Shown: in pieces, positions 56,281 through 60,802 of the stretch | Position numbering within the stretch: the first letter of the stretch is position 1 | How the letters are laid out: every line of letters begins with the position of its first letter | From: Klebsiella terrigena | Lineage (GTDB): Bacteria > Pseudomonadota > Gammaproteobacteria > Enterobacterales > Enterobacteriaceae | NCBI RefSeq assembly: GCF_006539725.1 | Contig: NZ_BJNO01000007.1 | Span: forward strand, 62,001-126,000 | Reading direction: 5' to 3' | DNA length: 64,000 bases | Made by a program: the position numbers and the translations under genes | The notes under the pieces: generated by a model | Seen by the model: the letters and a program-made list of their open reading frames with translations, nothing else | Told to the model about the DNA's origin: nothing | Database searches by the model: none

Positions 56281-56414
56281 CGCCGCCGAAGATCTGTCTT
56301 TAGCTAAGAGAGCTTGTGCCCCGTTAGCGTAAAACTATGGGTAATAAACGGCATGGCGCACGCCGCCGTCGGCGCTGTAAAACAGCGGGGTCATTCAGGA
56401 TGGGGAATTTCAGG

Positions 56415-56444
56415 CAACAAAAAACCCATTTATGTAAATGGGTT
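56415..56444 (-). other. Probable attL core, rybB 3' end, and int terminator
   Basis: Read on the minus strand, ATGGGTTTTTTGTTG equals the 3' end of the small RNA RybB as I know it from E. coli. This is where rybB is expected next to rcdA. The stem AACCCATTTA / TAAATGGGTT directly before the T run makes a strong rho-independent terminator for int. The rest of RybB is absent here, as expected if the phage entered within the 3' end and the full gene is rebuilt at attR. Confidence 0.6.
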
Positions 56445-56503: not shown

Positions 56504-57556
56504 TTACGGGGCATTGCCAACCGCTGCCGCCACTTTGCCGCCATTTGGCAGGGTAGCCAATGGGTTAAAGCGCAGCGCTGTTTCAAGGTGATCAGGGGCC
56601 AAGTGAGCATAGCGCATGGTCATTTTTATGTCGTGGTGACCAAGGATATTCTGAAGAGCAAGGATGTTACCGCCTGACATCATAAAGTGTGCTGCAAACG
56701 TATGGCGCAGAACGTGGGTAAGCTGACCGCGCGGCAGCACGATAGAAGTTTTCTCCATCACAGATAAAAACTGGAAGTAGCAGTCAGTAAAGAACTTGAA
56801 ACCGTCCAAGGCAATGATTTCCTCATACAACTCTTTGCTGATTGGAATGCTGCGGTTCTTTTTGCCCTTAGTCCTGACGAATGTGATCCGGTATTTTGTA
56901 ACCTGAGAACGAGTCAGGTTTACAGCTTCGCGCCAGCGGGCACCGGTACTCAGACAGATTTTGACAACCAGGGTGAGCAGGGGGCTTTGGCGTTTGCAGT
57001 CGCACAAAAGCTCAGTGATTTGTTCATGTGTCAGCCAGGCCATCTCTTTTTCTGCGATGGTAAATTTGCGCATGTTCTCCAGTGGGTTTGGCGCAGTCCA
57101 TTCTCCAAGTCGTGCCAGCTCGCTAAACACTCCGCTCATATAGCTTTGCTCAAGATTGATAGTTACCGGGCTGGCTCCTTTCTTCCATTTTTCGCTAAAG
57201 TAGATTTCACCCGTCAGGCGTTTATCTCGATAGTGCGCGAACATTTTGGATGTTAAATCAGTGGCGAGGGGATTTCCGAGAACATCGACCATCAGGATCA
57301 GCTTGTCGTGAACATGCTCGCCTGCGGTCAGAGATTTTCCGTGCAGCTTGTACCAGAGTTCTACGACATCTTTTAGCGTCCGACGGTCTACCGATTCGCC
57401 CAGCCAGGGTTTCGCCTCAGTCTCATCCATCATGTGCCGTTCAAACGCTAACGCTTCACCTTTAGTAGCGAATTGCCTACGCACGCGGCGTCCGCTACGA
57501 CCTGCGGGGTAGTATTCACAAATCCATTTTCCGGTGGTGAGTTTTCGTACTGACAT
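56504..57556 (-). CDS. int: P2-family tyrosine integrase
   Basis: This 350-residue site-specific recombinase has the P2-type N-terminus MSVRKLTTGKWICEYYPAGR..RRQFATKGEALAFE (arm-binding domain), a SAM-like core-binding domain and a catalytic domain. The catalytic residues are Arg in STGARWREA, Lys in RTKGKKNRS, His and Arg in HVLRHTF, His in LGHHDIKM and the Tyr nucleophile in MRYAHLAP. AGGAGGG lies upstream of the ATG at 57556. It is in the lysogenic (cI-strand) transcription unit, after the three-gene cassette. Confidence 0.95.
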   Translation of the reverse strand: MSVRKLTTGKWICEYYPAGRSGRRVRRQFATKGEALAFERHMMDETEAKPWLGESVDRRTLKDVVELWYKLHGKSLTAGEHVHDKLILMVDVLGNPLATDLTSKMFAHYRDKRLTGEIYFSEKWKKGASPVTINLEQSYMSGVFSELARLGEWTAPNPLENMRKFTIAEKEMAWLTHEQITELLCDCKRQSPLLTLVVKICLSTGARWREAVNLTRSQVTKYRITFVRTKGKKNRSIPISKELYEEIIALDGFKFFTDCYFQFLSVMEKTSIVLPRGQLTHVLRHTFAAHFMMSGGNILALQNILGHHDIKMTMRYAHLAPDHLETALRFNPLATLPNGGKVAAAVGNAP

Positions 57557-57635: not shown

Positions 57636-58007
57636 TCATAGGTATCGGTATGACTGCGGTGCTGTTATGTTGTCACCTAATGAACTTAGCAAACGTGGTT
57701 GTTCATAGACTTTCAAATCACCGATCTTAATCGCAAAGGCTTTATCCCTGCTTTGAAAGTAAGAATCAAAGAATTGTTTACTGATACCCGCATAACGGCT
57801 GGTTTTTTTCCAGACATTGCTGGGTTTGTCTTCAATAACATCGGCAATATCGAACTCAGCAACGATCATCCCTACAGGCATTGTTGAATAAATAACCACA
57901 GATTTAACATCTGGATTTTTGAAGATTCCTTTTCTGAACTCAAACTTTTTTGTTCCATCAAGAATCTTTTCAACAAATTCAGGTTTAATTGACAATAATA
58001 CTTTCAT
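57636..58007 (-). CDS. ASCH-domain protein
   Basis: This 123-residue protein begins MKVLLSIKPEFVEKILDGTKKFEFRKGIF, the classic ASCH/PUA-like N-terminal pattern (beta strand, K-P-x-x-x-x-I-x-x-G-x-K-x-x-E-x-R). Strands follow in VKSVVIYSTMPVGMIVAEFDI. ASCH domains are proposed to bind RNA or modified nucleotides, and some are nucleases or reader modules. The start overlaps the end of the GNAT gene by 23 bases, so expression is coupled. AT-rich codon use differs from the phage core genes and suggests recent acquisition. The function is not known. Confidence 0.8.
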   Translation of the reverse strand: MKVLLSIKPEFVEKILDGTKKFEFRKGIFKNPDVKSVVIYSTMPVGMIVAEFDIADVIEDKPSNVWKKTSRYAGISKQFFDSYFQSRDKAFAIKIGDLKVYEQPRLLSSLGDNITAPQSYRYL

Positions 58008-59058
58008 CTACAGCACCAAGTTTAATAATGTTGTCAAATTCTCTGTCGGTTAATTTTAATACACCCCAATATGCTTGTGGGTTTAAACCAACGTCTTCTA
58101 TTAGTTTAGCACGAGTGATTCTTTTCGGTAAAGCAAGATTATATGTAAAACTTATAATATAGGGGTATTTCTTTGTTTTATAAAAACTTCTCAATTCTAT
58201 TTCGGTAAATACACTATACCGAGCACAGTATTTAATAAAATCTTGCTCTGTTGGGAATGAAAAAATATCTCTAACATCTTCTACAACACATAAAGATGTA
58301 GCAACAGAACGATAATGAGCTGGACCTTTTTTATCTGACGTTCGATAAATTACGAGAATGTCATGCATTTTTATATTTGCTACATCTTGCATGGCGCAGA
58401 TGTAAATTTTTCTTATACTGTTAGCGTGAGACACGTCAGTAATAATATCTGGTGATTCAGTTATAAGTTTTGAATCTGGGAATAGACGAGTATGAAAATC
58501 TGGATAAATAGATAGTAAGTATTTGTTTTCTTTATGTCTGTTGTTGATGAAGGGATAATCGGCAAGAAGGTCTCCAGTGAGATCATCTGTGCTCATTTCT
58601 CTTACTAAAACATTTTCAATACCGTTTTCGGATTCTTTTTTTCCGTATTTTATAAATCCATAATTTAAAAAAAGTTTAATCAGGTAATCATGCTTATCAA
58701 AAACTGTTACATATATATCGTTCACTTTTTCACTTAATGCGTGGTCAAATATTTTTTTCAAAAAACGTTGACCTCGCAATGTACCTTTCGTATTAAACTT
58801 AAAGGTCCCTATTTTGAGATGTTTTAAATCAGCCAATGAAGGGTTAACATCAGTAACCTCGCCATCTTCAATTTTGAGATACATGAATCCATCAATTGAA
58901 TCATCCTCATTGTAGAGCACGTATGCTTTTTCTCTTAGATCTTTTGCTTTTTTGTGAAACCATTCTACAAAACCAGCTTTATAGTCAACTTTCAATGAGT
59001 CAAAAAAAGCATCGTCAAAGTTTACTTCATTAAAACTAATGTGCTTTAAATTTTCCAT
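57985..59058 (-). CDS. GNAT-family acetyltransferase with C-terminal PUA-like domain
   Basis: This protein has 357 residues. Residues about 1-160 look like a GNAT fold: YVLYNEDDSIDGFMYLKIED, then KFNTKGTLRGQRFLKKIFDHAL as a variant acetyl-CoA loop, then KLFLNYGFIKYGKKESENG. The C-terminal half (HANSIRKIYICAMQD.. MHDILVIYRTSDKKGPAHYRSVATSLCVVEDV) resembles EVE/ASCH-type PUA-like domains and may recognise RNA or a nucleotide. The acetylated target is unknown. GGAG directly before the ATG at 59058 selects this start over the ATG at 59070. The gene overlaps the ASCH gene and follows the membrane-tail gene by about 26 bases. Confidence 0.7.
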   Translation of the reverse strand: MENLKHISFNEVNFDDAFFDSLKVDYKAGFVEWFHKKAKDLREKAYVLYNEDDSIDGFMYLKIEDGEVTDVNPSLADLKHLKIGTFKFNTKGTLRGQRFLKKIFDHALSEKVNDIYVTVFDKHDYLIKLFLNYGFIKYGKKESENGIENVLVREMSTDDLTGDLLADYPFINNRHKENKYLLSIYPDFHTRLFPDSKLITESPDIITDVSHANSIRKIYICAMQDVANIKMHDILVIYRTSDKKGPAHYRSVATSLCVVEDVRDIFSFPTEQDFIKYCARYSVFTEIELRSFYKTKKYPYIISFTYNLALPKRITRAKLIEDVGLNPQAYWGVLKLTDREFDNIIKLGAVDESIIVN

Positions 59059-59084
59059 TTTAATCTCCATGTCTCATTGAAAAG

Positions 59085-60164
59085 TCATTTTCTAAATTTA
59101 ATGAAATGTGCGATTATATATAATGCTATTAACGATAGTGAGCCGTAAATAAATAGATTTTTATCTAAACTTTCTGTTGGGACAAATTTCATAACAAATG
59201 TTATTGCTGCGCCGTAGAAAATGTATGTAAATATTTTGCTTAGTTTAGATTTCGTGTTTTTAAATTTTACGACGACAGAAAAATCATTAAGTCTCGAATT
59301 TATATCATTCGATATTTTCCAATGATATATCATTGGATCATGAGACCCGAAAGATATGCCTTTGCTAAAATATTTTGTCCATGTCTCAGACTCTAAAATT
59401 CTTGAACCTTTATAATTTGAACCGGATGCAGCACAGTCATCAACCATATCGCGGATTATAAAAATATGGCATTTCAAAGGGGTACAAGCGGCGCTAGCAA
59501 GAGTTGTGGCTATTTCTGAGGGCAGATTTCTTTGCTCATTAACCCTAAAATCAATGATATCAGACCGCTCAATACTACTCTTAAGGAAGAGATCTTTGGG
59601 GTAAAATGTTTTCACTAAAAGACCGATATCTTCTTTATTAATTTGGACACGGAATCTTAAATAGTGATTGCAAGCATCTTCGGAAGAGAGACAATCCTTG
59701 AGTTTAAAGGCTAGTAAGGTGCCATTGTGGATTTTTGTTATTTTGACTCTATGGTCAAGCTCGCCGCCGCTAAATGATAACTTAGTATTAACAACTAAGT
59801 CTCCTTTATTGGCGAGCACTAATTTTAAATGTCTACCATCTACTGTTTTAGTGTCAATAAGGTATTCATTGAAAACTGCAGTTACGAGATCTCTGCTTGA
59901 TTCAAGGTTTTCACTAAGATCTGAAAAAAAATTATTTTCTTTTTCGAATGGTAGGAATATGCATATTGCCCCATGTTTAGCAATGGTTTCATCTTCAGGC
60001 TTTTTGAATGTGATGCCAAAATCTAAATAGCCAAATTTATGAGCGCTTATGTTCCAAAAATTAATATGCAACTCTTCAATGAAATTCTTATGTTCAGAGT
60101 TGTAGGTCGAGCCTGAACTACTATGATAATCCCTACACCCCCAGACCGCAAAACTTCGTGACAT
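59085..60164 (-). CDS. Unknown protein with two C-terminal membrane helices
   Basis: This 359-residue protein is one I do not recognise. The first ~300 residues are soluble-looking and mixed alpha/beta, from MSRSFAVWGCRDYHSSSG to the SHDPMIYHWKISNDIN region. Two hydrophobic helices follow near the C-terminus (IFTYIFYGAAITFVM and FIYGSLSLIALYIIAHF), then a short basic end KFRK. This gives a large cytosolic domain tethered by a hairpin of helices. AAAGGAAAT precedes the ATG at 60164. It lies 26 bases after cI on the same strand and is AT-rich. A role in superinfection exclusion or defence is possible but only inferred from context. Confidence 0.6.
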   Translation of the reverse strand: MSRSFAVWGCRDYHSSSGSTYNSEHKNFIEELHINFWNISAHKFGYLDFGITFKKPEDETIAKHGAICIFLPFEKENNFFSDLSENLESSRDLVTAVFNEYLIDTKTVDGRHLKLVLANKGDLVVNTKLSFSGGELDHRVKITKIHNGTLLAFKLKDCLSSEDACNHYLRFRVQINKEDIGLLVKTFYPKDLFLKSSIERSDIIDFRVNEQRNLPSEIATTLASAACTPLKCHIFIIRDMVDDCAASGSNYKGSRILESETWTKYFSKGISFGSHDPMIYHWKISNDINSRLNDFSVVVKFKNTKSKLSKIFTYIFYGAAITFVMKFVPTESLDKNLFIYGSLSLIALYIIAHFIKFRK

Positions 60165-60190: not shown

Positions 60191-60802
60191 TTAATTCAAA
60201 TTGACCAGTAAGTAAAAATGGCATCGTGCAATTGGGTTAAGTTCACTGATAAAGCACTCAAATGAATGGCATGGATTGGGTGCTCCAACCTTGACTCTTC
60301 CTACAGGTATTCTCGTAAGTTCTCTAATACTCACTTTCCCTTCTATCTCTACCACCCACTTACCATCGGTCACTTCGTGAAAATGCTGATCAGCTAAATA
60401 GAGCTGATCTGAATCCATGATTACGATAGGTTTTTGCAGAGAATCTGGCACCAACGCTTTGTCGAGTAGGTAAAAATTTGAATCTAATAATTTCCCATCT
60501 TTGATTTTTTTTCGAGGTACGGAAAACAAATCAGCAAGAACATTTTCATTTGCTGATTGGATACCTAAAGATTTTTGGGGTGGCTTAGGACTCCCAGTTC
60601 CAAATGAAAGCCACTCAACTGGGACGCCAGTTTCAATTGAGCACTTTATTATCCAGTCCGCAGGGAACACGTCTCTCATCCATCTGGTGCTCATCGTGCT
60701 TGTTGAAATCCCAAGCCGCTCACAAAGAGCCTTACGAGTACTTACTCCGTAGGCCTCAAGCATACGAAGAATAGCCTCACGGCCACCATTGTTAAAATCC
60801 AT
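60191..60802 (-). CDS. cI: Phage 186-type CI repressor
   Basis: This 203-residue repressor has an N-terminal helix-turn-helix of the phage CI family (REAILRMLEAYGVSTRKALCERLGISTSTMSTRWMRDVFPADWI) and the following CETGVPVEWLSFGTG-like segment. The C-terminal half is an S24-like oligomerisation domain (IVIMDSDQLYLADQHFHEVTDGKWVVEIEGKVSIRELTRIP). It lacks an evident autocleavage Ser-Lys pair, as in 186 CI, which is inactivated by Tum rather than by RecA. It maintains lysogeny through operators at 60808-60878. AGGAG precedes the ATG. Confidence 0.9.
   Translation of the reverse strand: MDFNNGGREAILRMLEAYGVSTRKALCERLGISTSTMSTRWMRDVFPADWIIKCSIETGVPVEWLSFGTGSPKPPQKSLGIQSANENVLADLFSVPRKKIKDGKLLDSNFYLLDKALVPDSLQKPIVIMDSDQLYLADQHFHEVTDGKWVVEIEGKVSIRELTRIPVGRVKVGAPNPCHSFECFISELNPIARCHFYLLVNLN

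Follow-up and report, generated by a model that had tools for sequence, protein, structure and literature searches.

A three-gene cassette between cI and int

In the 64,000-nucleotide stretch of Klebsiella terrigena contig NZ_BJNO01000007.1 analysed in this study (the window), three adjacent genes are located on the minus strand between the repressor gene cI and the integrase gene int of a P2-like prophage (Table 1). The first encodes a protein of an uncatalogued family with a hydrophobic C-terminal tail, for which the label membrane-tail protein (MTP) was coined here; the other two encode a GNAT-EVE protein and an ASCH protein, which resemble the GevT/GevA and PDC-M11 proteins. The cassette combines an already known candidate pair with a third, uncatalogued component that is found across phyla, and it occupies a prophage defence slot.

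Table 1. Positions of the cassette genes and of other prophage features, in window numbering
Feature	Position	Strand	Basis
cI repressor of the prophage	60191..60802	-	Pfam Phage_CI_repr E 4.1e-25, Phage_CI_C E 9.8e-30
MTP, 359 aa, proposed third component	59085..60164	-	uncatalogued family
GNAT-EVE protein (GevT-like, PDC-M11A), 357 aa	57985..59058	-	PADLOC, PHROG matches
ASCH protein (GevA-like, PDC-M11B), 123 aa	57636..58007	-	Pfam, PADLOC matches
Tyrosine integrase of the prophage (int)	56504..57556	-	phrog_1 E 9.1e-73, Pfam Phage_integrase E 3.8e-20
18-base direct repeat, likely prophage end	56412..56429; second copy 76647, beyond the window	.	repeat pair
ShosA/ShosT-like pair	74278-76470 (G000:C7:136278-138470), beyond the window		second candidate defence cargo

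A preliminary description of this DNA had given the minus-strand order as cI, a membrane-tail gene, a GNAT fusion, an ASCH gene and int, and the coordinates agree with it. Gaps of 26 bases separate cI from MTP and MTP from GNAT-EVE, the GNAT-EVE and ASCH genes overlap by 23 bases, and 79 bases lie between ASCH and int. The three genes, which do sit there as the AT-rich cargo cassette that had been described, are all lower in GC content (MTP 34.4%, GNAT-EVE 31.6%, ASCH 36.3%) than cI (42.2%), int (50.5%), the region at 61-64 kb (51%), and that at 50-56 kb (58.9%). The low GC supports a foreign origin of the cassette; its function is not deducible from composition.

The MTP start at 60164 was preferred over that at 60224 because relatives mostly keep the resulting N-terminus (M1, S4, A6, W8). 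Ratios of nonsynonymous to synonymous substitution rates (dN/dS) against IMG/VR relatives were 0.02-0.07 in the seven of twelve three-gene comparisons in which dS was unsaturated, namely 4/4 for ASCH, 2/4 for GNAT-EVE, and one only for MTP, where the value of 0.054 comes from a single comparison with a dS of 2.4, close to saturation. In phage 186, cI and int are carried on a common lysogenic transcript. An Rfam scan of 56-62 kb found no RNA at the gathering score, and no terminator-like site was seen on the minus strand from cI to int in scans that did not rise above shuffled sequence. Promoter and terminator scans gave 12 sites versus 13.3 and 2 versus 3.7 in shuffled sequence, and a signal above chance was rejected. 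Since the scans gave no more sites than shuffled sequence, shared expression of the cassette with cI and int stays an inference.

MTP and its linkage to GNAT and ASCH genes

Profiles for MTP, GNAT-EVE, ASCH, small GNAT and AAA_17 proteins were used to count gene neighbours in 26 loci, in a Paenibacillus locus (L185), and in L191 and L192, which a subsequent search of 385 genomes had yielded. After repeat fetches of the same contig were dropped, 29 MTP-family loci remained, which reach down to 22% identity and span several phyla. A GNAT or GNAT-EVE gene is located within ~4 kb of MTP in 28 of them and an ASCH gene nearby in 26. In 23/29 loci MTP immediately precedes the GNAT or GNAT-EVE gene on the same strand, namely in all twelve P2-like prophage copies and in 11 of 16 others (L053 belongs to neither group). 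This usual order suggests that the partner of MTP is the acetyltransferase. Outside prophages, where the MTP relatives are 22-34% identical, GNAT adjoins MTP in 16/16 cases and ASCH in 14/16. The two loci lacking ASCH are both short of flanking sequence: MTP starts ~300 bases from the contig end in L048, and L050 is a 3-kb contig.

Several points define how these counts are to be read. The window has near-identical copies in L002-L006 and, if L008 and L099 are counted as a single locus, about 23 distinct loci remain; the profiles were partly trained on the same loci that they counted. All loci were retrieved with MTP queries, L067 with a GNAT-EVE query as well. Independent Pfam models place the ASCH proteins of L046, L049 and L051 above cut-off and that of L067 just below, with no match for L047; for the small GNAT, L046, L047, L048, L049 and L067 are above a cut-off and L051 is below. 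L191 and L192 were fetched after the linkage pattern had been written down, and both fit it (2/2).

The remote relatives differ in their accompanying domains. MTP is found with ASCH, AAA_17 and a small GNAT in Thorsellia (L046) and Nitrosomonas (L047), with ASCH and a small GNAT in Prolixibacteraceae (L049) and Desulfosporosinus (L051), with a small GNAT in Brenneria (L048), and with GNAT-EVE in Opitutales (L050). In L192, genes for AAA_17, MTP, PIN-GNAT-EVE and ASCH lie on one strand, and MTP, GNAT-EVE and ASCH are in the same order as in the window. An EVE-free form composed of ASCH, MTP and a small GNAT occurs in L046, L047, L049, L051 and L191, with AAA_17 in L046, L047 and L191. The MTP gene of L051 is split over two frames.

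The same association is seen on plasmids. By tblastn, MTP matches 6 of 72,556 plasmid records, each within 2 kb of a GNAT-EVE match, and the GNAT-EVE protein matches 34 of the 72,556; the hypergeometric probability of the shared records is 6.6e-21, or 1.7e-17 when two Rhizobium records are counted once. With the Nitrosomonas MTP as query, six plasmid records were matched, one of them new. This seventh MTP plasmid overall, from Paenibacillus, carries GNAT-EVE, ASCH, AAA_17 and small GNAT genes beside MTP; on all seven plasmids GNAT-EVE is located less than 2 kb from MTP. In IMG/VR, 9 MTP loci were found with the single protein and 11 with the family alignment, and a genome-contig scan with that alignment gave six remote relatives (L046-L051); the scan used two short patterns, so that many relatives will be missed. 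MTP is rare in the genome samples, with 2/197 among relatives, 2/398 in the phylum, 3/385 in the class of genome G228, and 1/369 in the class of the window's genome; these samples overlap, and the counts include the window's own genome or G228.

Random phage cargo was rejected as an explanation of MTP on the basis of its cross-phylum linkage to GNAT and ASCH genes, from which it appears very likely that MTP is a real component of the module. The profile counts likewise bear out the expectation that the three kinds of gene recur together, and they do so also outside phages.

For MTP itself, searches of Pfam, PHROGs, NCBIfam and PADLOC (PADLOC-DB version 2.0.0, 2023) gave nothing meaningful, and tblastn in 50,697 phage records gave no match at E 1e-5. 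Its remote relatives gave nothing above cut-off when six were scanned against Pfam and five against PADLOC. A catalogued exclusion or defence protein was rejected as an identity for MTP, as no family was matched. A C-terminal hydrophobic segment is present in all fourteen family members examined (MTP and 13 relatives), and MTP has no N-terminal one. Its AF2 (AlphaFold2) model (pLDDT 77.8, pTM 0.75) shows a beta-rich protein with a pair of helices at the C-terminus, and the invariant residues are scattered across the soluble part. Foldseek searches of the PDB and of viral models with this structure found no convincing fold; the top-probability PDB matches were oligosaccharyltransferase complex chains, presumably ribophorin I, whose TM-scores of at most 0.38 are too weak to name a fold. 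We read MTP as a cytoplasmic domain that would be held at the membrane by its C-terminal tail.

The GNAT-EVE and ASCH pair, with and without MTP

The GNAT-EVE protein matches PADLOC model PDC-M11A (E 1.9e-135) and the ASCH protein PDC-M11B (E 1.4e-48), both near full length. Since both models are matched and the genes are adjacent, the two are by sequence the PDC-M11/GevTA candidate pair. The likeness to PDC-M11, a phage defence candidate of PADLOC-DB, thus covers these two proteins; the window differs in MTP, for which, as for the five relatives scanned, that database holds no match. Escherichia phage PhiR47_2 (PV340567) carries the same two genes with the same 23-base overlap, and the window's GNAT-EVE and ASCH proteins are 58.5% and 63% identical to its 'GevT toxin' and 'GevA antitoxin', respectively. 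It differs in that it is a lambda-like phage in which gevT directly follows cI, with neither MTP nor another gene between them. Toxicity of GNAT-EVE and its neutralisation by ASCH are suggested by this annotation and by prediction.

The prediction comes from Bell 2020 (PMC7641849). It describes (PIN)-GNAT-EVE proteins with ASCH partners, often with an AAA_17 ATPase, and predicts a toxin-antitoxin function for these operons. According to this paper, prophages frequently carry GNAT-EVE proteins, and no module of this kind was characterised at that time. The core domains and the prophage location are as in the window; MTP and the EVE-free combination of MTP, small GNAT and ASCH were not met in the available text, and 'transmembrane' does not occur in the main text. 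Among the literature matches listed, no other title concerned such a system. The preliminary description, which knew of no system with this composition, was therefore mistaken as to GNAT-EVE and ASCH, which are present in PDC-M11, Bell 2020 and PV340567; as far as the searches reached, it stands at most for the triad with MTP.

The 'GNAT-PUA fusion' named earlier was correct in its N-terminal half, where a profile of the GNAT-EVE family matches PaiA (1tiq, E 9.9e-5) and other acetyltransferases. The PUA half is now called EVE, a member of the PUA superfamily, following Bell 2020 (PMC7641849) and the annotation of a 46% identical relative. The GNAT-EVE protein of the window alone had no Pfam match, Pfam EVE matches the relative L067 only below cut-off (E 0.0053, 17.2 bits versus 23), and a profile search of structures with the family found no EVE structure. 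The protein also matches phrog_6345 (E 5.2e-154). The ASCH assignment of the third gene was confirmed by Pfam ASCH (E 1.1e-6), and Zymomonas ASCH structures were matched as well (E 1.2e-9). When the residues tested in the ZmASCH paper (Tyr47, Lys53 and Ser128) were compared by hand count on the alignment, Tyr47 and Ser128 were kept and Lys53 was replaced by Gly, for which reason membership of the ZmASCH-type single-stranded RNA nucleases was rejected.

The gene before gevT varies. In 25 IMG/VR loci for which GNAT-EVE was the query, it is MTP in 10, a 260-aa protein in 8, an AAA_17 ATPase in 3, a coiled-coil membrane protein in 1 (L029), a BRCT-like protein in 1 (L030), and none of these in 2; wherever an upstream P2-type cI was matched (19/25), an extra gene always precedes gevT. 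The 260-aa protein (L020-L022, L024-L028) is helical with a zinc-ribbon-like end. It may be HEPN-like, judged from its R-x4-H motif, kept in 6/6 aligned sequences, and from weak DUF3644 matches in both sequences scanned. Foldseek gave no PDB match for it at E <= 0.001, and tblastn gave no match in phages and two partial, weak matches in plasmids. One of these plasmids (L186) is rich in insertion sequences, with no ASCH or acetyltransferase gene annotated. Among the loci of the pair, the GNAT-EVE gene of L023 (L023/L052) carries an internal stop.

In Escherichia coli, 317 of 5,426 genomes match gevTA. Of the best 35 of these 317 (73-77% identity), MTP is present in 7 and the 260-aa gene in 28, located directly before the pair in all 35, as accessions and neighbouring positions agree. 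Since they split 7/28, MTP and the 260-aa gene are mutually exclusive in these sets. Both groups include near-identical strains; one genome of each kind was opened, and both proved to carry P2-like prophages with the cassette between cI and int. By blastn at E 1e-5, neither gene was found without gevTA in the 5,426 genomes. The other 282 matches have 64.7-65.3% identity among the matches listed.

Proposed module, rival explanations and prophage setting

The slot itself was surveyed in the best 80 of 342 IMG/VR loci of the integrase, many of which are near-copies, with PADLOC run on one representative per cluster. A cI-int interval of ~400 bases with no open frame of 70 codons is present in 31 loci, cargo in 48, and no cI was found in 1. 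The cargo is PD-Lambda-1 in 14, KAP-like PDC-S20 in 7, a coiled-coil membrane protein alone in 7, Old in 6, this cassette in 4, AriA-like in 3, PDC-M18A/B in 3, weakly PDC-M34B-like in 3, and unassigned in 1. A gene of a cluster with a PADLOC-matching representative is thus present in 40/48 occupied slots, the 4 cassette loci included, which supports the preliminary description: related prophages often hold known or candidate defence genes there. Rousset 2022 (PMC9122126) describes a defence hotspot between cI and the integrase in P2-related phages of Vibrionaceae, i.e. the same slot with defence cargo; the present case concerns a P2-like prophage of an enterobacterium. Vassallo 2022 (PMC9519451) describes two other P2 hotspots.

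A toxin-antitoxin-type anti-phage module is considered the probable function of the cassette, and the full reading, with three components between cI and int, is favoured with slightly less confidence. The GNAT-EVE protein would be an acetyltransferase that its EVE domain directs to nucleic acid, and may stop growth when unleashed. The target would most likely be (aminoacyl-)tRNA, by analogy with other GNAT toxins cited in Bell 2020 (PMC7641849). ASCH, whose gene overlaps gevT, may restrain GNAT-EVE or read the same nucleic acid. MTP would sit in the inner membrane by its C-terminal tail, with the beta-rich domain in the cytoplasm, and may work with the acetyltransferase as its substrate, its anchor, or a downstream membrane effector. 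Toxicity, restraint, substrate, trigger, membrane orientation, defence activity, and the exact role of MTP are inferred in this scheme, and the effector, anchor and sensor roles cannot be separated by the present evidence. Because MTP adjoins the same kinds of gene in distant bacteria, it is probably a missing part of the system to which the suspected defence pair belongs.

A number of observations weigh against this interpretation. The pair lacks MTP in 15/25 IMG/VR loci, and in the one lambda-like E. coli prophage opened (O55:H7) the order is cI-gevT-gevA with no extra gene. As the pair is kept at many sites that lack MTP, it can do without this protein. Independent occurrence, which the preliminary description had named as contrary evidence, is therefore seen in part, i.e. 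for the pair; MTP without GNAT occurs in 1/29 loci. That locus (L053) is the only one with neither GNAT nor ASCH, its contig ends 195 bases past MTP, and the 5.9 kb upstream of MTP hold only phage genes. The names GevT and GevA rest on GenBank annotation, and no paper was found for PDC-M11 nor, among the matches listed, for GevT/GevA as a bacterial system. In one pairwise alignment with PaiA, judged by eye, GNAT-EVE has an atypical cofactor loop, so that its catalysis is not certain. The highest TM-score of the MTP model was 0.38 among the 50 PDB matches listed. Finally, the coiled-coil membrane protein, which precedes gevT in L029, is independent cargo, because it is found alone in the cI-int slot in 7/80 integrase loci; the position before gevT can be read as either an effector slot or mosaic cargo.

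The coiled-coil protein found alone in the slot, together with gevTA loci that lack MTP and with L053, where MTP is found without the pair though the contig ends shortly after it, also favours MTP as an independent superinfection-exclusion gene that lies beside gevTA by chance. This is very improbable, given the GNAT and ASCH genes that adjoin the non-prophage relatives of MTP. The three genes may instead be a simple toxin-antitoxin (addiction) module by which the prophage or plasmid is stabilised; it would not act against phages, and MTP would be a regulator. GNAT and PIN domains are often toxins of such modules according to Bell 2020 (PMC7641849), relatives sit on plasmids, and the prophage looks decayed yet retains the cassette. 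However, the slot in related prophages is often filled by defence genes and some relatives adjoin defence-type genes, e.g. of the SIR2 family (L098) or an N-6 DNA methylase (L097), and addiction by itself is regarded as possible but rather unlikely. It is less likely still that GNAT acetylates a base that EVE and ASCH read, protecting phage DNA or marking self, while MTP tethers the machinery. On base acetylation, Bell 2020 (PMC7641849) refers to Iyer 2013 and puts forward that phages may be protected from restriction, and the ASCH protein keeps Tyr47 and Ser128 of ZmASCH; however, Lys53 is not kept, and the frequent PIN RNase fusion argues for RNA (Bell 2020, PMC7641849).

A bolder and doubtful extension of the anti-phage reading is that GNAT, ASCH and MTP are an ancient immune system in its own right in several phyla. 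In this extension, the acetyltransferase, whether or not accompanied by EVE, PIN and the AAA_17 ATPase, would sense or modify nucleic acid and switch the tail-anchored, beta-rich MTP into a membrane-acting effector. The slot before gevTA in P2-like phages would then be an exchangeable effector slot, holding MTP or the 260-aa helical protein.

Until now, GNAT-EVE and ASCH have been predicted toxin-antitoxin or defence modules. The presence of a conserved, uncatalogued membrane partner bears on which genes should be cloned and tested, as two-gene assays may not capture the whole system. Natural versions for comparison exist in E. coli, where gevTA occurs by itself (in a lambda-like prophage), with MTP, or with an alternative gene, so that the role of the third gene is directly testable in laboratory strains.

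The host prophage spans 56412-76664 in window numbering (20.25 kb), continuing beyond the window. It looks decayed because just the final part of the portal profile is covered by its portal gene; the replication gene, located beside the tail cluster at the edge of the fetched stretch, matches only part of its profile. Despite this probable decay, the reading frames of cI, int and the cassette stay open. At its other end, an AT-rich pair resembles ShosA (DprA family) and ShosT (PADLOC E 1.4e-54 and 5.2e-12). The same gene order is found in E. coli MB20, beside rcdA and ybjJ, and the neighbours of the window's prophage appear to resemble the rcdA/ybjJ surroundings. Between ASCH and int of the IMG/VR relative L002 (L002:8618-12014), a 495-aa reverse-transcriptase-like gene is present twice, and by eye the copies look like group II intron insertions.

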